Source of the DNA: Aneurinibacillus terranovensis DSM 18919
Lineage (GTDB): Bacteria; Bacillota; Bacilli; Aneurinibacillales; Aneurinibacillaceae
Assembly (NCBI RefSeq): GCF_000430625.1
Contig: NZ_AUMJ01000036.1
Location: 1-56,374 of the forward strand
Length of the DNA: 56,374 bases
Direction of reading: 5' to 3'
Shown: positions 35,800-47,347 of the stretch, piece by piece
How positions within the stretch are numbered: position 1 is the stretch's first letter
Layout: each line of letters begins with the position of its first letter
Notes under the pieces: generated by a model
Databases searched by the model: none
What the model was told of the DNA's origin: nothing
What the model saw: only the letters and a program-made list of their open reading frames with translations
Translations under genes and position numbers: made by a program

Positions 35800-36029
35800 T
35801 GTCTATACCTCATATTTGTTTGTTTTTTCTTTTATGATAACACAGCGGAGGAAGCCCACCCACTGTTCCATGAAGACTGCTGTTGCATTCATCGTCATTT
35901 GCTGTCCTCTTTTGTCATTCAATGTAACATATTGGCACATTGAAATTTTTATAGTGGAAATGATTTTGAAAAAATGTAAAATAAAAGAGGTGATTGGTAT
36001 AAAGGATTCGCTTCTTTCTTCCTAAAAAA

Positions 36030-36112
36030 ACATATTTGGCAAACCTGTCGAAAGGCAGGGACGCAAAGCTATGGGCCTAAAGCAGTTCGCTGCTATGGTT
36101 GCCAAGTTGCAC
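36030..36112 (+). promoter_or_regulatory. Cyclic di-GMP-I (GEMM) riboswitch
   Basis: The segment TTTGGCAAACCTGTCGAAAG, GCAGGGACGCAAAGC, TATGGGCCTAAAG and ATGGTTGCCAAG has the GEMM-I layout. It contains the P1b GAAA tetraloop (CCTGTC-GAAA-GGCAGG), the invariant GGGACGCAAAGC, GGGCCTAA, and a closing GGTTGCCAAGTTGC that pairs with GGCAA. A terminator follows at 36119, so c-di-GMP should decide between termination and read-through into the chemoreceptor gene. The region 35800-36030 upstream shows no gene; its promoter was not located with confidence. Confidence 0.92.
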
Positions 36113-36118
36113 GTAAAA

Positions 36119-36167
36119 AACAACTTCCGGTTGCTTTGTTGCAGTGCCTTGGAAGTTGTTTTTATTT
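36119..36167 (+). terminator. Terminator controlled by the c-di-GMP riboswitch
   Basis: AACAACTTCC (36119-36128) pairs with GGAAGTTGTT (36151-36160), then TTTATTT. The 5' arm follows the aptamer (GTTGCACGTAAAA) closely, so pairing of the aptamer's 3' strand with it or with the terminator stem could form the switch. It lies 120 bases before the chemoreceptor start. Confidence 0.8.
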
Positions 36168-36286
36168 GCTCCCAAAGCTGAACAGGAAGGGAGGAGAAGG
36201 ACTGCCGAATGATTTTCAGGAGATGTTTATCAACAAAAAGAGAGCCGTTTAATTACAAACAAGAACAAATCTAAGGAGAGTAAAAA

Positions 36287-38029
36287 ATGAAAAAGAAAAA
36301 GCTTAAAATGTCTGTTACTGCTAAACTTGTTTCTATTTCACTCGCGATTTTGCTTCTTTTTGGTTTATCAACGATGACGCTGGCTTATTTTATGCTGAAA
36401 AACAGCAACCTGAAAAGCATGGATAAACAGTTGAATGACACTTCTACCATTCTGGCCGAGCAGATCAATCGTGATAAATTAAAGTCGATTATGAACGAGC
36501 CGAACGATAAAAACCCGGACGTCCTTGAAGCCACGAAGAACATGGATAAGATGATGGGCCAATCCGCAATTATCAGCAATTTATACATAATTACGTCAAA
36601 GAACGGCTCGTACTATGCGCCTACAATGAGTACGAGTGTTTTAAAAACAGGGGCCAAGTATGATACCGACATGGTAAAAGCAGGCTTATCCCCGGATATG
36701 ATCGCTGCGGTAAAGAGAGCGTTTGAAGAGAAAAAAGTTCAGGCAACAGCGATTTACGGGGATGCCTTCGGACAGTATAAAACCGGATTTGCTCCTATAC
36801 TCGATGAAAATGGCACGGTGCTTGCTGTGTATGCCGTGGATTACGACGTATCTTCAGTAACCCGGAAGGCATGGGCGGAAGCTCTCAATATCTTTTATTT
36901 CACTCTGCTGTTCATCGTTATTTTTGGAGTCGTTCTGTATGCTTTTATTAAGAAAATGGTGAAGCCGATCGTTTATTTGTCAGAAGTATCCCGAAAAGTA
37001 GCAGACGGCAACTTGGAGATAGAGCTCACAGAGGTGAAAACAGAGGACGAAATCGGTACCCTCAGCAGGAATTTTGCTACTATGGTCAATAGTCTGCGGG
37101 GCATTATCCAGAAGGTAACAAGCGTTTCAAGCCAGGTTTCGCATTTATCCACCAATTTATCGTCCTACATTGAAGAAACAACGTTGGAAACGAATCAAAT
37201 TTCCGCCTCCATTCAAGAAATTGCGAGTGGAACCGAGGTGCAGGTAAGCAGTGCGTCCAGCAGTGCACAATCCATTGAAGAATTGGCAATAGGAATTCAG
37301 CGTATTGCGGAGACGTCTGTTGCGGTATCGGAAGCCTCCATTACAACAGCGGAGGAGGCGCAGAGAGGAAACCAGTCTACGCAAAAAGCGGTTCAGCAGA
37401 TGGATTCGATCAGCAAATCGGTCAATAAATCGGCCTCCATCGTCCAATCGCTTGGAAACCGCTCCCAGGAAATTGTGCAGATTGTTGAAATTATCGCCGG
37501 AATCGCTTCACAGACGAACCTGTTGGCATTGAATGCCGCGATTGAAGCGGCGCGTGCCGGAGAACAAGGAAGAGGGTTTGCCGTCGTTGCGGATGAAGTG
37601 CGGAAGCTTGCGGAACAATCGGAAGAATCAGCACGACAGATTGCCGATCTTGTCCAGGAAATTCAAGGAGACACTTCGCATTCGATAACCGCGATGAATC
37701 AGGTCGTAGAAGAGGTACAGGCCGGGTTGGACGTTGTACAGCACGCGGAAAATGCGTTTTGTCAGATTCAGAAGTCGATCGAAAATATTTCCGATCAAAT
37801 CCGGGACGTTTCATCGACTTCACAGGAAATGGCGGCAAGCTCACAGGAAGTGACGGCATCTGTAGAAGAAATCGAACAGATTGCCAGGAGTTCGTCTGAC
37901 AGTACACAGGCTGTGGCGGCTTCTTCAATGAAACAGTTGTCTTCCATGAAAGAAATTCACAGTGAAGCCCAGTTGCTCCGTGAACTGGTTGAGGAACTGC
38001 AGCAGGCGATTCATCAATTCAAATTATAA
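36287..38029 (+). CDS. Methyl-accepting chemotaxis protein under c-di-GMP riboswitch control
   Basis: 580 residues. A first membrane helix (about 12-36) leads to an extracellular sensor of about 155 residues (Cache-like, [11 protein letters not shown] before the second helix). A second membrane helix (about 197-221) is followed by a HAMP domain ([20 protein letters not shown]) and a cytoplasmic signalling rod. The hairpin tip is [20 protein letters not shown] and [20 protein letters not shown]. The tail lacks a CheR-binding pentapeptide, as usual in Bacilli. AAGGAGAG precedes the ATG at 36287. The only gene-free leader is the c-di-GMP riboswitch and terminator, so receptor levels should follow c-di-GMP. 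The synthetase gene follows 53 bases later with no terminator between. Confidence 0.92.
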
Positions 38030-38082
38030 ATTTTGCAGGCTATGTGAAAACACTTCTTAGAAAGCAGAGGAGAAATTTGAAG

Positions 38083-41000
38083 ATGAACATACATCCTAAT
38101 GAAAAATCCGGAACGTATTCGGCTACGGCAGAGCAGTACTGGCTGACACATATGGCGCCGCCTTTGCCTGTCATGGAATTTCCGCTCGATTTTTCCCGTT
38201 CGCCTGTATATGAGTTCGCGGGACAATGCATTAGCGATGCCCCCGACAAAAGCTTTCTTTACCAGATAAAAAAGGTCTGCCGGGATAAGGGGATAAATGT
38301 AAATACCCTGCTGCTCACCGCCTACTTTGTATGGATGTACCGGTTGACGAATGAAGAAGACATGATTATAGGCATTCCCTCCACAGGATACAAAAAGACA
38401 GGTGAGGTGACTCTCATTCCTCTGCGTGTTTCGATGGCGGGGCTGAACAGGATAGACGAGGCTCTTTCTCTCGTAAGCCAGCGGGTAACTGAAGCCGCGC
38501 ATTATAGCGATTACGCATTTGATGAACTAGCGGACAAGCTCAATCCGGATAAGGATGCCGGCCGGCCCCCTGTGTATTCGACCATCTTTTCCTTGACGGA
38601 GGAAAGAATCGCCGATCCTGCGGACCTTATCTGGCAGGTGCGGGACGATGGGGAGCAGCTGAAATTTAAACTTACATTCAATAAAACGGTGTTTAAAGCC
38701 GAGTCAGTGTATCGGTTTATCAAGCAGTATAAAAAAATACTCAAGGCATTCATAGAAGACGCGTCTTTTTTATTCCGGACGTTTGACATCTTAACGGAAC
38801 AGGAACATCTCCTTTACAAGGAGTTAAATCATTCCCGTGCAGATTTTCCTGCCACACAAACTCTACCTGGCCTGTTTTACCTGGCGGCGGACAAGCACCC
38901 AAACAATATCGCCCTGTCTGCTGAGGATGGCCGGATGACATACGAGGACGTAAACAAACGTTCCAATCAACTGGCGCACAGGCTGCAATTTTATGGCCTG
39001 AAAAAAGGCGATTTTATAGGGGTTTTTATGGAACGAAGCTTGGACACTGTCGTTAGCTTACTCGGTATTATGAAAGCCGGCGGAGTGTATGTTCCGATTG
39101 ACCCTGAATATCCGGAAGACCGTGCAAGGTATATGATCCAGGATAGCAGGATATCCCATGTCGTGACGAAAAGACAGCATGAAGAAAAAGCAGTGGAACT
39201 AATCGCGGGCAATGCGTGCGTTGAAAAGATACTTTGTGTGGATGACGGTGAGTGTGAACATTATTCCGCAGATAACGTGACAAGCGGTCTCACACCGGAT
39301 GACTTTGCCTACGTTATTTATACGTCTGGCTCAACCGGCCGCCCGAAGGGAACGCTGCTTTCCCACCGGAGTGTTGTCAATCAGATTGATTATGCGATAC
39401 GGTATTATGATTGCCAGGAGTATGACATTTTTACCCAGTTCACTTCGTTTAGCTTTGATCCCTCGGTGTGCGAGACGTTTTCCGCTTTATTTTCCGGGGC
39501 AAGGCTGCATTTGCTGTCGCCTTCACAGCGCGTTTCCATCGAAGAATTCACCAATATCATCGAAGAAATAAAGGTGACCGGGGTTTTAGCCCTTCCTACC
39601 GCTTTCTTTAATCAATTGGCTTCGTATTTGTCCGACGAAGACTGTAAAAAACTCGCTTCCGTAAAACGCATCGTTGTAGGGGGAGAAGCATTAACCGGTT
39701 CCATGGTCCGCCTCTGGCAAAAACGGTTTGGGACCAACATTACGATTATCAATGCGTATGGGCCGACAGAATGTACGATCATGTCTACCTCGTATAAAAT
39801 TAGCCATCTTGTACCGGATACACAGAACGGTATACCGATAGGAAGGCCGGTGCAAAATTATGAAATGTACATCCTCGACAGCGCAGGGCAGCTTTGTCCG
39901 GTTCATGTACCCGGTGAGCTGTATATCGGAGGCGAGGGGTTGGCGCAGGGCTATCTGAATCAGCCAGAAAAAACAGCTGAAGCGTTTATACCCCACCCAT
40001 TTTCTACTATGCCGGGGGCACGTCTCTATAAAACAGGCGACCTTGTCCGCTTGCTCGCGGATGGAAATATTGAATTTATCAGCCGTAAAGATACGCAGGT
40101 GAAAATTCGCGGGCACCGCATTGAACCGGGTGAAATCGAAGAGGTATTGGCCGGGCGGGAAGAAGTGCAGGAGGCGGCGGTCATTGCACAGAAAGCGCAG
40201 GACGGAAACAATCGCCTGATTGCTTATTATACGACGGTGGACAAGCAGCCTCTTCACGGGAGAGAAATTCGGGACTTTCTTGCCGGTTCGCTGCCGGGCT
40301 ACATGGTCCCCGAACAAATCATCCACCTGGCAGCTATGCCTCTTTCCCCGACCGGTAAAATTGACCGGAAAGGTCTGGCAGCCAGAGAAATAGAGTCGGC
40401 GATGCCGCAGGAAAGCTATGCGCCTCCCCGAAATGCGACGGAGAAGCTGATAGCAGAAGCCTGGGAAAAAGTCCTTGGTGTGAAAAAAGTAGGCATTTAT
40501 GACGACTTCTTTATGATTGGCGGGCATTCGCTGAAGGTTCTGCGCATTCTCGTACTGGTAAAGCCTTCTTTTCCCCATTTAAAAATCCAGGACTTTTTCC
40601 GCTACCGTACCGTCGCCGAACTGGCCGAGTATGCTGAGAAGCGGGAACCGCAGGAATCACAGAAAGTACAGACGGCGGGTGAGACGATTTCGAATGCCAA
40701 TCTGGCTTCCGGGGAATGGAAAGTGCGAGACCTTGCGGAACCTGCACGAATAACAGGAGCTGTCTCTTCCGGGAGCAAGCCGGAAAATATTCTGCTCACA
40801 GGAGCGACCGGTTATCTTGGGGCCCATATCTTATATGAGCTTTTACTGCAAACTTCGGCAACGGTTTACTGCCTTGTTCGAAGTTCAGAGGGAATTTCCG
40901 GGGAAGAACGCCTTACGGATACGATGCGCTTTTACTTTGGCGGGGAAGGCGCAAAAAGGCTGGAAGACCGGGCTGTTATCGTTGAGGGGGATTTAGGGAA

Positions 41001-41919
41001 AGCTGATCTGGGTCTATCGCCGGCAATAACGTTCCACCTGCACAAGGTGATTGACACGATTATTCACAGCGGCGCCGATGTTCGCCATTTCGGCGACTCC
41101 GCCCAGTTTGATAAGGTTAACACCCGGGGAACCTCGTTTCTGCTGGACATCGCCCGTCATAAAAAAGGTGTTCATTTTCACCACATCTCCACGATAAGCG
41201 TACCGGAAGAACTCGCGGAAAGCGGGCAGTGGGGTGATTTTGCTCAAACGGGCGACTTTACGTATGATGTGACGCTGGAAAACGGATATACAAACAGCAA
41301 GCTCCAGGCGGAGAAGCTGGTTCGCGAAGCGATGCGTACCGGCGTGCCGGCGACCATTTATCGGGCGGGCAATTTAACCTGCCACTCTGAAACGGGGTTA
41401 TTTCAGCGCAACATGGAAAGCAACGCGTTTTACCGGATGATAAAAGCGGCGCTGCTGCTGGGAGCGGCTCCTTCCGCCAATTGGTACGTCGACGTAACGC
41501 CAATCGATTACGCGAGCCGGGCGATTGTAAACCTGGTGCATCAATCCGATATGGAAGGGCGGACGTTCCACATTTGCAACCCGCAGCAGCTTCTGTATGA
41601 CGAGTTTATCCGGATATTGCAATCGTTCGGGTATGACATACAGCTGATGGAAGCCGACCGTTATCAACAATGGTTATTCCTGTCAAATCACGATACCGGG
41701 CGTGAGGAAGCGCTGCAGCTGGCGATGGCGCAGCTGGATGGAGACGGAGCGAAGGATTCGGAATATCGCTATACCTGTAACGAGACAGAAAAATTCCTCA
41801 GGGGAACGGGCATCAGCTGCGCGAAACCCGACCGTCAACTGCTTCAGCTGCTCGTAAACTATGCGGTCAAGACCAGATATTTTCCGGCAGCAAACGGGCA
41901 TGAAAAAGTACTGGTATAA
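38083..41919 (+). CDS. Single-module NRPS-like synthetase: half-condensation, adenylation, carrier, thioester reductase
   Basis: 1278 residues from ATG 38083, chosen for AGAGGAGA upstream; the frame is open to 38044. Residues 1-250 equal the C-terminal lobe of a condensation domain; the N-lobe with HHxxxDG is absent. Adenylation domain 260-765: YTSGSTGRPKG (core A3), NAYGPTE (A5), YKTGDLVR (A7), KIRGHRIEPGEIE (A8), PTGKIDRKGL (A10). Carrier domain 780-850 with GGHSL, S816 for phosphopantetheine. Reductase domain 900-1278: LLTGATGYLGAHIL (NADPH fold) and Y-x3-K in GYTNSKLQAEKL. The enzyme should activate one acid, load it, and release it as an aldehyde or alcohol. By hand alignment to GrsA the specificity residues are D-P-C-A-V-G-A-I-M, matching no code I know. 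The PPTase gene follows directly. Confidence 0.85.
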   Translation: MNIHPNEKSGTYSATAEQYWLTHMAPPLPVMEFPLDFSRSPVYEFAGQCISDAPDKSFLYQIKKVCRDKGINVNTLLLTAYFVWMYRLTNEEDMIIGIPSTGYKKTGEVTLIPLRVSMAGLNRIDEALSLVSQRVTEAAHYSDYAFDELADKLNPDKDAGRPPVYSTIFSLTEERIADPADLIWQVRDDGEQLKFKLTFNKTVFKAESVYRFIKQYKKILKAFIEDASFLFRTFDILTEQEHLLYKELNHSRADFPATQTLPGLFYLAADKHPNNIALSAEDGRMTYEDVNKRSNQLAHRLQFYGLKKGDFIGVFMERSLDTVVSLLGIMKAGGVYVPIDPEYPEDRARYMIQDSRISHVVTKRQHEEKAVELIAGNACVEKILCVDDGECEHYSADNVTSGLTPDDFAYVIYTSGSTGRPKGTLLSHRSVVNQIDYAIRYYDCQEYDIFTQFTSFSFDPSVCETFSALFSGARLHLLSPSQRVSIEEFTNIIEEIKVTGVLALPTAFFNQLASYLSDEDCKKLASVKRIVVGGEALTGSMVRLWQKRFGTNITIINAYGPTECTIMSTSYKISHLVPDTQNGIPIGRPVQNYEMYILDSAGQLCPVHVPGELYIGGEGLAQGYLNQPEKTAEAFIPHPFSTMPGARLYKTGDLVRLLADGNIEFISRKDTQVKIRGHRIEPGEIEEVLAGREEVQEAAVIAQKAQDGNNRLIAYYTTVDKQPLHGREIRDFLAGSLPGYMVPEQIIHLAAMPLSPTGKIDRKGLAAREIESAMPQESYAPPRNATEKLIAEAWEKVLGVKKVGIYDDFFMIGGHSLKVLRILVLVKPSFPHLKIQDFFRYRTVAELAEYAEKREPQESQKVQTAGETISNANLASGEWKVRDLAEPARITGAVSSGSKPENILLTGATGYLGAHILYELLLQTSATVYCLVRSSEGISGEERLTDTMRFYFGGEGAKRLEDRAVIVEGDLGKADLGLSPAITFHLHKVIDTIIHSGADVRHFGDSAQFDKVNTRGTSFLLDIARHKKGVHFHHISTISVPEELAESGQWGDFAQTGDFTYDVTLENGYTNSKLQAEKLVREAMRTGVPATIYRAGNLTCHSETGLFQRNMESNAFYRMIKAALLLGAAPSANWYVDVTPIDYASRAIVNLVHQSDMEGRTFHICNPQQLLYDEFIRILQSFGYDIQLMEADRYQQWLFLSNHDTGREEALQLAMAQLDGDGAKDSEYRYTCNETEKFLRGTGISCAKPDRQLLQLLVNYAVKTRYFPAANGHEKVLV

Positions 41920-41924
41920 AGCTG

Positions 41925-42602
41925 TTGAAAATAACCGAACCGATGATTCAACTTTTTGCGAGTGCTTTTGGAGAGCCGTTTTCAGACTTTCAAATGAAAA
42001 AATATATGAATGAGCTGTCCCCCGAAGAACAGGAGCGCATTTTGCAGTATAAGAACCCGGAAGACCGGCAGAGAACACTGCTGGCAAGTAAAATGACCAG
42101 TGCGATCCTTGAACGTTATTTTGATAAAAAGCATCCTGTACAAATAAAACGGGACAACATGGGACGCCCTTATCTTTGCTCGGAACCGGCATGGGGGGGA
42201 GATTTTAATCTCAGCCACTCGGGAGCATGGATTCTTTGCGCCGTTGCGAATTCGGGCAGGGTAGGCATTGATGTGGAAAGAATCGAGCCGATTGATCTTT
42301 CGGCTGCCGCGTACTGTTTTTCCGACGATGAATGCAGGCGGCTGTTCCGGCAACCCGCGGAAAACCAGCTCCACTTTTTTTATGAACGGTGGACGGAAAA
42401 AGAAGCTCTCGCTAAAACGGTGGGGGTCGGATTGCTGGAGACAATAACAGATCTTAAAGCGGAGCCTCATTCCTCCCACACAGTTAAGTGGAACGTGAAG
42501 CATTACTGTCTCGATCGGGAGTACCTTGCATGTCTGGTGTCTACGGAAGGGTGCTGTCCGGAGGAAATTGTATTCTTGGCTCATAGAGATATTGGTTTAT
42601 AA
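41925..42602 (+). CDS. Sfp-type 4'-phosphopantetheinyl transferase
   Basis: 225 residues. The magnesium and CoA motifs of Sfp-type transferases are present: NLSHSGAWILCAV, VGIDVERIEPID (D and E ligands) and FYERWTEKEALAKTVGVGL. It moves phosphopantetheine from CoA to S816 of the carrier domain in the preceding synthetase, five bases upstream. The TTG at 41925 or the ATG at 41943 may be the start; neither has a strong ribosome site, which suggests coupling to the synthetase stop. A terminator follows 100 bases later, closing the MCP-synthetase-PPTase unit. Confidence 0.9.
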   Translation: MKITEPMIQLFASAFGEPFSDFQMKKYMNELSPEEQERILQYKNPEDRQRTLLASKMTSAILERYFDKKHPVQIKRDNMGRPYLCSEPAWGGDFNLSHSGAWILCAVANSGRVGIDVERIEPIDLSAAAYCFSDDECRRLFRQPAENQLHFFYERWTEKEALAKTVGVGLLETITDLKAEPHSSHTVKWNVKHYCLDREYLACLVSTEGCCPEEIVFLAHRDIGL

Positions 42603-42675
42603 GCGAAGTTAAGCAGGAAGAAATAGCGGACGTGTTGAATTGCCCTGCTTCAGTATTGAATTACCGGATTCACCA

Positions 42676-42740
42676 TTGAATAAAAATTTATTCAAAAAAA
42701 GCAAGGCCCCCCTCGCAAATTTTGCCGTTGGGGGTTTTTA
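42676..42740 (+). terminator. Palindrome and terminator after the PPTase gene
   Basis: A perfect dyad TTGAATAAA-AA-TTTATTCAA (42676-42695) is followed by CCCCCC (42707-42712) pairing with GGGGG (42730-42734) and TTTTT. The second is a normal terminator for the synthetase-PPTase transcript. The rest of the gap up to 42860 holds no gene. Confidence 0.65.
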
Positions 42741-42860: not shown

Positions 42861-43526
42861 ATGTTTAGAGCGAAAAAAATAGTGGATTTATCGCTGCCGT
42901 TAACCAACCAAACTCCCATTTATCCCGGAGATCCTGAGCCGAACATCAGCGTAGCCACCACATTAGAGAATGAAGGCTACAATCTAAAGCATGTTCATCT
43001 GGGATCGCAGACAGGTTCCCATGTAGACGCTCCCTACCATTTTTTAAACGAAGGGGAAACGATCGACCAATCAGATCTGCGGCTGTTTATTGGCACAGGA
43101 ATCGTCATTCCCGTTCTTGATAAAGGGGAGCGGGAAGAAATCGTGATGGAGGATGTGGAACCGTATTTGGATCAACTGCAAGCGGGAAAGGTTGTACTCT
43201 TTCATACAGGGTGGTCCAGGTATGCCGGGGAAGAAAAATATTTTAACCATCCATACGTCCATATTGAAGTGATAAACGAAATGATCCGCAGAGGGATTCG
43301 AACCTTCTGTATTGACTGTATCAATATGGATTTTACGGGCGGAACTTCATTCCCTGTCCATGAAGCGGTGGGGGCGGTTAATGGGATTATTGCAGAGAAC
43401 CTGACCAATTTTGCGGGCATTGATTTTGACGAACCTTTAATTTGTGTCTTTCCTCTCCGCATTATTGGTGCCGATGGTTCGCCTGTCCGGGCAGTGGCGA
43501 TCGAGGCTGCAGGCGCTGAAAGATAA
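42861..43526 (+). CDS. Cyclase-family (KynB-like) metal-dependent hydrolase
   Basis: 221 residues with the cyclase/kynurenine formamidase family layout: DLSLPLTNQTPIYPGDPEP at the N-terminus and the metal site SQTGSHVDAPYHF (the family's H-x-G-T-H-x-D-x-P-x-H in a variant form with Q for the first H). CIDCINMDFTGG and FPVHEAV follow in the C-terminal half. Family members hydrolyse N-formylkynurenine, isatin or other amides/lactams. No tryptophan-degradation genes are near, so the substrate is unknown. The ATG at 42861 has AGAGAGG upstream. A terminator follows. Confidence 0.82.
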   Translation: MFRAKKIVDLSLPLTNQTPIYPGDPEPNISVATTLENEGYNLKHVHLGSQTGSHVDAPYHFLNEGETIDQSDLRLFIGTGIVIPVLDKGEREEIVMEDVEPYLDQLQAGKVVLFHTGWSRYAGEEKYFNHPYVHIEVINEMIRRGIRTFCIDCINMDFTGGTSFPVHEAVGAVNGIIAENLTNFAGIDFDEPLICVFPLRIIGADGSPVRAVAIEAAGAER

Positions 43527-45026: not shown

Positions 45027-45875
45027 ATGAAGGGAACTACGAAATACTTACTCAGTGCCGTTCTGTTAGGGGCCACATTGGTTGGCTGCAGCACGAATTC
45101 AGCTCCAGGTTCATCGAGTGCGGGCAGCGCAGCCAATAATTCCGGCTCTTCCCAGGGTCAAACCATCAACGTGGCAGCGGATACAACATTCCCGCCGTTT
45201 GAAACTCAAATGAACGGAAAAGTAACCGGGTTTGATATCGATTTAATCAATGCAATTGCCAAAGAAGAGAACTTAAAGGTCAATATGAGAACGATGAACT
45301 TCTCCGGTCTTATCCCCGCTCTCCAGGCAGATCAGGTGGATATTGCCGTAGCAGGTATTACGATTAAAACAAGCCGTGAAAAAGTTGTTAATTTCTCCAA
45401 CGCTTACTACAAATCCGGCTTAAGCATCCTGGTGAAAAAATCGGATTCATCTGTAAATGGCCTCAATGACCTGAAAGGAAAAACAGTAGCAACTAAGAAA
45501 GCAACGTCATCCGTTGATATTCTGAATAAAGTTGGCGGTGTTAAAGTCCAACAATTCGATAACATTGACGACGCCTACAACCAATTAGAAAACGGCGGCG
45601 CACAAGCGGTTGTATTCGACCATCCGGTTAACCTTAACTTCATGAAATCGCATCCTGATGTAAAAACGGTGGGCGGACTTTTAACCGGGGAATATTATGG
45701 TATTGCGGTTCGCAAAGACAATCCTGACCTTCTCAAGAAAGTAAATGAAGGATTCAAGAAACTTCAGGATAACGGGGAATATGCAAAACTGTACAAACAG
45801 TACTTTGGTGATGACAAAAACGGTATTGTGACAACGACAGTTGACCCGGCTACTGTTGCTTTACACGATAAATAA
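45027..45875 (+). CDS. Polar amino-acid ABC transporter, substrate-binding lipoprotein (GlnH-like)
   Basis: 282 residues. Lipoprotein signal MKGTTKYLLSAVLLGATLVG-C with lipobox LVGC, then an S/G/N-rich tether and a type II periplasmic-binding fold: VAADTTFPPFETQMNGKVTG, FDIDLINAIAKEEN, the ligand-binding IAVAGITIKTSREKVVNFS and the C-terminal lobe DNPDLLKKVNEGFKKL. The family binds glutamine, glutamate, arginine or other polar amino acids; the DTTFPPFE start and the NFS block favour glutamine-like substrates. AGGGGGTT is 10 bases before the ATG. The permease gene follows 88 bases later and the ATPase gene after that. Confidence 0.9.
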   Translation: MKGTTKYLLSAVLLGATLVGCSTNSAPGSSSAGSAANNSGSSQGQTINVAADTTFPPFETQMNGKVTGFDIDLINAIAKEENLKVNMRTMNFSGLIPALQADQVDIAVAGITIKTSREKVVNFSNAYYKSGLSILVKKSDSSVNGLNDLKGKTVATKKATSSVDILNKVGGVKVQQFDNIDDAYNQLENGGAQAVVFDHPVNLNFMKSHPDVKTVGGLLTGEYYGIAVRKDNPDLLKKVNEGFKKLQDNGEYAKLYKQYFGDDKNGIVTTTVDPATVALHDK

Positions 45876-45963
45876 TCTTTGTACATTTGAAAATGGTGAT
45901 GGCATAGCATGCGTATGGCTGCTATGCCATCATTACTGTACGAGTAAGAAAGGTAGTTGAATT

Positions 45964-46638
45964 ATGGACATCATACAAGCCATTAGAGATGCTATGCCCC
46001 AGTTGCTGCATGGTCTTGGATTTACCATCGAATATTCGATATTAGGCGTATTGTTTGCCTCCATTGTTGGCCTCGTTGCCGCTTTTATGAAACTGTCGCG
46101 CTTTTCTTTGTTTCGCTTAATCAGCAATATGTATGTAGAAATCTTTCGTGGAACGCCGCTTCTTATCCAGATCTTATTTATTTATTCCGGACTGCCTGTT
46201 GTGCTTCCCCTTCATCAATGGTTCGGGGAATCGTATTTGTTAATAGCTGCGACCACGGCGCTTGCGCTTAATGAAGGAGCTTACATTACGGAAATTATCC
46301 GAGCAGGGATTCTGTCTGTTGACCGCGGCCAAAAGGAAGCCGCTGAAAGTATCGGAATGACCGGCTTCCAGACGATGTTTTATATCATCCTGCCTCAGGC
46401 GTTTAAACGCATGATTCCTCCGCTTGTGAATCAATTTGCTCAAACGATAAAAGATACGTCTCTGTTATCCGCCATCTCGGTTGGTGAATTAATTTATACC
46501 GGACAGATTATTATCGCCCAAACGTTTCAGGCTTTCCAAATATACACAGCCATTGCCTTCCTCTACTTTGTTTTTATTTTTGCCCTGACTCAAATTGCCA
46601 GGTATTTGGAAAGGAGATTTCAAATTGATCAGCGTTAA
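45964..46638 (+). CDS. Polar amino-acid ABC transporter, permease (GlnP/HisM-like)
   Basis: 224 residues with four or five membrane helices. The HisM/GlnP-type pattern is clear: a [20 protein letters not shown] start, [19 protein letters not shown], and the EAA loop [20 protein letters not shown] with [14 protein letters not shown], which docks the ATPase. It forms a homodimer in the membrane with two copies of the ATPase. The ATG at 45964 follows GAAAGG. Its end overlaps the ATPase gene start by 14 bases. Confidence 0.92.
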
Positions 46639-47347
46639 GAATCTCAAAAAATCATTTGGATCCCTGGAAGTATTGAAAGATGTGAGTATTGATATACATC
46701 CCCAGGAAGTAGTCGTTGTTATTGGCCCATCCGGGAGCGGAAAGAGCACATTTCTCCGCTGCCTCAACTTCCTGGAAAAACCAACGGCTGGCCAAATTAT
46801 CATTGATGACATTGAATTAACCGACCCAAAAACAAATATTACAAAGATGCGGCAGCGTGTAGGGATGGTGTTCCAGCGGTTTAATCTGTTTCACCATCTT
46901 ACGGTAATGGAAAACATTACAATCGGCCCCCGTAAAGTTCTCGGCGTTTCAAAAGAAGAAAGTGAAAAGCTTGCGAGAGAACTCCTGAAAAAAGTCGGAC
47001 TTGCCGCAAAAGAAAACAGCTATCCGGATCAGTTGTCGGGCGGCCAGCAGCAGCGGGTTGCGATTGCCAGAGCGCTTGCGATGAAGCCGGAAGTGATGCT
47101 GTTTGATGAACCGACATCTGCGCTAGACCCTGAAATGGTTGGCGAAGTGCTTCAGGTTATGAAAGACCTTGCTAAAGAAGGGATGACCATGTGTGTGGTT
47201 ACCCACGAGATGGGCTTCGCGAAAGAGGTAGGCGACCGGGTTATTTTTATGGATCACGGTACGATTGTAGAAGAAGGAACACCGGAAGAAATATTCGGAA
47301 GCGCCAGGGAAGAGCGTACACGTTCATTTTTAAGCAAAATATTATAA
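46625..47347 (+). CDS. glnQ: Polar amino-acid ABC transporter, ATPase (GlnQ-like)
   Basis: 240 residues from a TTG at 46625, chosen because AAAGGAGAT lies 8 bases upstream; an in-frame TTG at 46595 exists but has no ribosome site. It begins [12 protein letters not shown]. Walker [11 protein letters not shown]-loop [13 protein letters not shown], signature [15 protein letters not shown], Walker [15 protein letters not shown] and the switch histidine in VVTHEMGFA are all complete. It ends with the typical [20 protein letters not shown]. It powers the upstream permease for amino-acid import. Confidence 0.93.

Follow-up and report, generated by a model that had tools for sequence, protein, structure and literature searches.

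What brings a gene for a chemoreceptor and a gene for a one-module peptide synthetase together behind a single putative riboswitch? The question is raised by a stretch of 56,374 nt from Aneurinibacillus terranovensis DSM 18919 (the window, meaning the whole stretch of DNA that was analysed), in which an aptamer of the cyclic di-GMP (c-di-GMP) class I family and a terminator are followed by genes for a methyl-accepting chemotaxis protein (MCP), a non-ribosomal peptide synthetase (NRPS)-like reductase and a 4'-phosphopantetheinyl transferase (PPTase). The anatomy of this unit, the conservation of its order and the co-occurrence of its sensor domain with its synthetase are direct observations. 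With moderate confidence, we read them as a unit that c-di-GMP would switch off, the synthetase making an aldehyde or pyrazine derived from an amino acid and the receptor being tuned to that product or to its precursor. The parts of the unit are as follows.

36028 to 36114, + strand: c-di-GMP-I (GEMM-I) riboswitch aptamer (RF01051, 81.4 bits, E 1.6e-14).
36116 to 36163, + strand: intrinsic terminator of the expression platform (hairpin of -21.3 kcal/mol, then a T run).
36287 to 38029, + strand: MCP of 580 aa with HAMP and MCPsignal domains (PF00672, PF00015).
36389 to 36871, + strand: extracytoplasmic sensor domain of the MCP (no Pfam match at E <= 0.01).
38083 to 41919, + strand: NRPS-like reductase of 1278 aa, composed of half a condensation (C), an adenylation (A), a thiolation (T) and a reductase (R) domain and called ATR here (PF00668, C-terminal half; PF00501, PF00550, PF07993, TIGR01746).
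38125 to 38805, + strand: condensation domain of the ATR, C-terminal half (profile positions 193-451 of 456).
38884 to 40359, + strand: adenylation domain of the ATR (motif-based 10-residue code DPCAVGAIMK).
40447 to 40632, + strand: thiolation (carrier) domain of the ATR (PF00550).
40786 to 41877, + strand: thioester reductase domain of the ATR (TIGR01746 above cut-off; Tyr-x3-Lys kept).
41925 (or 41943) to 42602, + strand: Sfp-type PPTase (ACPS PF01648, AASDHPPT_N PF22624).
About 42699 to 42740, + strand: terminator 3' of the PPTase gene (hairpin of -16.7 kcal/mol, T run).

In the Rfam search of the window, the aptamer stood at 81.4 bits against a gathering score of 35 and covered the model at full length (positions 1-87), reading GGCAAACC at what we take to be its ligand-contact stretch. 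An intrinsic terminator, its energy calculated from the fold of 36116-36165, is present in the expression platform, as is expected of a c-di-GMP-I riboswitch. Both MCP domains exceed their cut-offs (PF00672, 45.7 bits; PF00015, 170.6 bits), as does the ACPS domain of the PPTase (PF01648, 55.9 bits against a Pfam cut-off of 25). The ATR keeps the core motifs of its A, T and R domains, and its half condensation domain lacks the N-lobe that presumably carries the HHxxxDG motif. The 53 nt between the MCP and ATR genes contain no T run, no hairpin better than -7.0 kcal/mol and, by consensus scan, no promoter-like or terminator-like site on the + strand. Profile searches and hairpin folding thus bear out the anatomy that an earlier note on this DNA had claimed: a riboswitch aptamer with a terminator ahead of a chemoreceptor gene, a one-module NRPS-like reductase and a PPTase after it, no terminator between receptor and reductase, and the first terminator behind the PPTase.

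The arrangement recurs in relatives. Full-length ATR orthologues with 53-54% identity were found in four of the ten other genomes of the same family, all of one genus; the window's own genus has one other genome in the set, and there the same search found none. All four carriers have an aptamer, a terminator behind it, an MCP gene (54-57% identity) and then the ATR gene, and in two of them a PPTase gene follows, overlapping or abutting that of the ATR. A search of genome contigs for further related loci gave two candidates, with merely 29 and 23% identity. Among 398 Bacilli genomes, ATR matches at E <= 1e-220 were present in 45, spread over 14 of 145 genera and no fewer than 49 loci; up to two ATR candidates and up to eight sensor-domain candidates were scored in each genome, so that the per-genome numbers of matches are minimum values. 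An MCP gene lies directly upstream of the ATR gene on the same strand at 37 of the 49 loci and directly downstream at three (the tallies 37, 3, 12, 28 and 14 in this account were counted from listings). By genus, the MCP stands upstream in 11 of 14 and downstream in one, g82, where the order is reversed and the MCP lies 3' of the synthetase (L110-L112). The nine loci without an adjacent MCP comprise three of genus g70, where an MCP gene lies on the opposite strand at a distance of about 4.5 kb, three that encode long proteins in g55, and L102, L107 and L113. As a control, 21 further NRPS matches from the window's family were examined, and none has an MCP within 1.5 kb; they come from four genomes only, and many are modules of the same assembly lines. 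Chance adjacency should be rare, because genomes carry just 6 to 55 MCP domains (16 genomes counted); G208, G092 and G306 have 6, 7 and 9, and in each of them one stands at the ATR. The window's own genome (4.25 Mb) has seven c-di-GMP-I matches and 23 MCP domains, and these small numbers, together with the recurrence in other families, argue that the arrangement exceeds chance.

A c-di-GMP-I aptamer is present at 12 of the 49 loci, five of them in family f1 and the others in G144, G306, G208, G092, G330, G393 and G168. The complete order of aptamer, MCP and ATR is found in the four same-family relatives and at six further loci of this first survey set, and 12 of the 25 ATR genomes with any c-di-GMP-I match have one at the ATR locus. 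A script picked a hairpin with a T run 3' of the aptamer in 11 of the 12 leaders, that of L097 being unclean; by eye, L097 has a better hairpin further along its leader, and a hairpin is visible in the leader of L109. After the hypothesis had been formed, the genus of G393 and the family of G144 were searched in addition, and ATR genes were found in 18 of 40 and 4 of 24 genomes, respectively, giving 19 new genomes once three of the 22 that were already in the first survey were removed. All 19 have an MCP upstream on the same strand and 14 have an aptamer before it, a rate that is not class-wide, as these taxa were chosen for a unit-bearing member. The loci without an aptamer are three short copies in g73 (G431, G414, G415) and two in f29 (G450, G451); at L213 (G423), both matches are incomplete. 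The two best ATR matches in a plasmid collection, on the replicons NZ_CP054613.1 of Paenibacillus cellulosilyticus and NZ_CP045296.1 of P. cellulositrophicus, also belong to units of aptamer, MCP and ATR, the latter with a PPTase gene upstream of the aptamer. Conservation of the order across relatives had been set beforehand as the test of the earlier note, and the order held in the same-family carriers, the six further loci and most of the later set. The survey supports the interpretation in that note, with a qualification as to the three genes grouped there behind the riboswitch: MCP and ATR are kept together, whereas a PPTase gene adjoins the ATR at just 10 of the 49 loci (one query) and 3 of the 19 later ones, and is thus an optional part.

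The association of receptor and synthetase extends to the sensor domain. Sensor domains of the window type and the L114 type have no Pfam match at E <= 0.01, searches of the PDB with the domain gave no convincing match, and two of 13 members match MCP-like_PDC_1 (best E 8e-4). Two subfamilies can be distinguished. The window type (E <= 1e-50) occurs in 9 of the 398 genomes, in all nine at the ATR locus, and the second type (E <= 1e-40) in 31, in 28 of them at the ATR locus, which puts the best matches of 37 out of 40 genomes there when both types are added up. Each count has the query's own locus in it, and the cut-offs were chosen after the lists were seen. The ratio of sensor identity to signalling-domain identity had a median of 0.98 in 12 ATR-linked receptors and 0.67 in 36 other MCPs (Mann-Whitney p 2e-6), where the rows are best hits within the sample, neither independent nor full repertoires. 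The control comprises 36 of 40 fetched MCPs, four without the hairpin motif having been dropped, and the ATR-linked set was measured with a slightly different region definition. With sensor and signalling parts conserved to much the same degree in the ATR-linked receptors, the sensor sequences speak for a conserved ligand. A second, more distant receptor paralogue with a c-di-GMP-I aptamer upstream is found in G392 (L152, G392:C1:3957694-3957779).

What might the synthetase make? Judged by its family, the ATR would load an amino acid and release it reductively, and its R domain predicts an aldehyde or an alcohol as the product. The residues numbered D235 and K517 are retained together in 48 of the 49 ATRs; in L102, G replaces the first of them. 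The half condensation domain is dispensable, because it is absent from L074-L076, L093 and L114. Distances between A domains correlate with those between receptor signalling domains (r 0.85, one locus per genus, Mantel p 0.0005), as is expected of genes passed on together, and both may simply follow the species.

A precedent for such chemistry is the minimal A-T-R enzyme ATRed of Xenorhabdus indica, which, in the portion of the report available, makes a pyrazine, proposed to arise via the aldehyde of phenylalanine (PMC7586950). ATRed and the window ATR have the A-T-R core and the predicted reductive release in common, and it is by this analogy that we favour an aldehyde or pyrazine as the product class. 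Unlike ATRed, the window ATR has a half condensation domain before its A domain, linkage to an MCP and, in many relatives, a riboswitch; the available portion of the ATRed account contains no chemoreceptor. Identity with better-known systems was rejected on score: the ATR reached 760.5 bits against an NCBIfam cut-off of 2500 for AusA (NF047350) and 427.5 against 1030 for L-aminoadipate reductase of the Lys2 type (TIGR03443), although its N-terminus and A domain do align to the latter model, and the PPTase reached 57.5 against 225 for the aureusimine type. The likenesses to these systems are, as we presume, the terminal reductase and adjacent PPTase of the aureusimine NRPS system AusA/AusB and the A-T-R layout of L-aminoadipate reductase.

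The reading that we favour would then work as follows. Positions 36028-42740 would form a single transcription unit, headed by an aptamer that, from what is known of its family, is predicted to bind c-di-GMP. At high c-di-GMP the aptamer would close and the terminator would halt transcription; at low c-di-GMP, in the motile state, receptor, synthetase and PPTase would be made. The PPTase would charge the T domain, the A domain would load one alpha-amino acid, and the R domain would release it as an amino aldehyde, with dimerisation to a pyrazine or reduction to an amino alcohol as possible further steps. The extracytoplasmic domain of the receptor would sense the product, or the parent amino acid or amine, and so steer swimming. 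The receptor ligand is the least certain step of this mechanism.

This reading has to be weighed against observations that tell against it, and against rival explanations. The direction of the switch is a case in point. Riboswitches of the c-di-GMP-I class before chemotaxis genes have been described, including one before an MCP gene in B. anthracis, as has an OFF function in C. difficile (PMC6366702, in the portion available). The window shares with these cases the aptamer, the terminator-type platform and an MCP as the first gene; unlike them, it adds a dedicated NRPS-like synthetase. Its terminator stem starts 3' of the aptamer and makes no use of the P1 strand, and this layout alone suggests, less firmly than the family suggests the ligand, that c-di-GMP lowers expression and does not raise it. 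Telling against the favoured reading, the duplex that an antiterminator would form from the 3' strand of P1 and the arm of the terminator reached -7.7 kcal/mol in the window (shuffle p 0.12), such complementarity was weak elsewhere too (shuffle p 0.07-0.94, below 0.05 at none of ten loci), and equilibrium folding gave no ON/OFF discrimination; in it, the P1 strand was mispicked in most rows. An ON switch, with read-through promoted by c-di-GMP and a sessile-state metabolite as the product, would suit the poorly supported antiterminator and has a class I parallel in Bc2 of B. thuringiensis (PMC6366702, same portion); we consider it unlikely, as binding of the ligand would not directly break a terminator stem that begins after the aptamer. 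The promoter-like site at 35955-35982 is no evidence, since the consensus scan gave eight such matches against 8.6 in shuffles. In the aptamer of P. cellulosilyticus (L199:2897-2983), GCACAC replaces the GCAAAC of the window near the ligand site, and ligand preference might differ.

The unity of the unit is likewise not uniform. No aptamer is present at the locus in 33 of the 45 ATR genomes, and in G168 an aptamer stands directly before the ATR gene with no MCP between them. Strong hairpins (<= -13.6 kcal/mol) separate MCP and ATR at 10 of the 37 loci with this order (L074-L076, L093, L095, L096, L098, L103, L106 and L108, the window not among them) and may break the coupling of the pair in the species concerned. 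An ATR with its own promoter, the gene order being incidental in the window's strain, could appeal to these hairpins, all of which are in relatives; we regard it as very improbable, given the featureless 53-nt gap of the window, the gaps of 0 nt in L114, 17 nt in L094 and 13-42 nt at 16 loci of g33 (open reading frame starts as listed), and an order that recurs in most genera. Among 40 ATR genomes searched, 20 have no c-di-GMP-I aptamer anywhere, including 15 of the 16 of g33. When nine aptamer-less loci were compared with other Rfam families, one match alone reached its gathering score, a T-box located 3' of the ATR gene in L103. The 16 g33 loci (L077-L092) share a long conserved leader, about 250 nt upstream of the MCP gene. 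In the two of these loci that were searched, nothing in Rfam reached its gathering score; a lax search with the leader of L078 gave only two matches, far under the gathering scores. A further regulatory RNA might lie in this leader, or it might serve as a promoter region.

The other points against the favoured reading concern the ligand. The larger sensor subfamily is conserved despite A-domain codes that differ widely between genera (20 distinct codes among 49 ATRs), so a strict match of product and receptor does not fit, and reductase distances follow sensor distances only loosely (r 0.22, p 0.07, one locus per genus). Sensor paralogues at E ~1e-31 to 1e-38 lie away from ATR loci (16 second paralogues in g33, one in G266 and window-type ones in G104 and G254), and structure prediction from the single window sequences gave a mean predicted local distance difference test score (pLDDT) of 44 for the sensor domain and 33 for the half condensation domain. 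The varied codes would suit a shared programme of low c-di-GMP with no shared ligand, in which the receptor responds to a nutrient unconnected with the ATR, whose own product would be a defensive volatile, for example a pyrazine. Aptamers of the same class head other MCP or chemotaxis genes of the window's genome (L042, L045), and an antimicrobial pyrazine is attributed to a Paenibacillus strain in the accessible portion of one report (PMC5481530), where the gene for its biosynthesis is not named. We think this explanation possible, if rather doubtful: shared regulation by c-di-GMP is insufficient by itself, because it leaves unexplained both the g33 loci, which keep the pair at 16 of 16 though the aptamer is absent there, and the placement of the closest sensor relatives, mostly at ATR loci.

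The three genomes in which the second sensor type occurs without an ATR (G317, G361 and G308) also count against the favoured reading. In these, and in G107 with a weaker match, a gene for a pyridoxal phosphate (PLP)-dependent decarboxylase adjoins the MCP gene on the opposite strand (L139, L140, L141, L156); identity to the decarboxylase of G317 is 72% in G361, 66% in G308 and 52% in G107, and an SNF-type symporter gene is also found at L139 and L140. These neighbours hint at an amino acid or amine as the ligand of the sensor. The receptor could accordingly be a nutrient sensor for the parent amino acid or amine, with the ATR consuming the same amino acid and its product going unsensed. To us this seems distinctly improbable, as neither that decarboxylase nor the symporter was found in the 48 fetched ATR neighbourhoods, and no other transport or catabolic gene is conserved beside the MCP-ATR pair (gene lists judged by eye).

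Beyond the unit, the next gene after the 3' terminator (42861-43526) belongs to the cyclase family PF04199 and is not counted to it. Further downstream, 45027-47347 encodes a polar amino acid ATP-binding cassette transporter; L037 and L039 have similar genes in the neighbourhood of the unit, oriented differently, and the solute-binding proteins share just 28-29% identity. On the - strand, 23262-23536 matches BsrG (RF01412, 72 bits against a cut-off of 55), which we take to be a type I toxin-antitoxin RNA family.

Chemotaxis towards a self-made small molecule is known from E. coli, which moves towards autoinducer-2 with a synthase and a receptor that are not known to form one transcription unit, and the unit proposed here shares that principle. 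Within the open-licence literature, screened mostly by titles, no description surfaced of an MCP-ATR unit or of a c-di-GMP riboswitch before an NRPS gene; the parts are known, whereas their conserved combination appears to be new. Elsewhere in the window's family, in another genus, a c-di-GMP-I aptamer stands directly before a multi-module NRPS assembly line (L115:5178-5273; G008:C6:25177-25272), with a terminator-like hairpin, seen by eye, from L115 position 5346.

The unit joins c-di-GMP, motility and specialised metabolism within a short stretch of DNA, and it predicts a receptor-ligand pair that is open to test with a single purified domain and a handful of synthetic compounds. Should the product prove to be what the receptor senses, the pair would be a two-gene system by which Bacilli move collectively, attracted or repelled by their own scent, and the unit would serve as a lead to what many uncharacterised one-module synthetases produce. 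We advance only tentatively, as falling somewhat short of an even chance, the broader reading of a self-chemotaxis module across Bacilli, in which one unit encodes a signal synthetase (for an amino aldehyde or pyrazine) and its receptor, in many genera placed together under a c-di-GMP riboswitch. The recurrence of the pair suggests that Bacilli may make, and follow, a scent of their own when motile.

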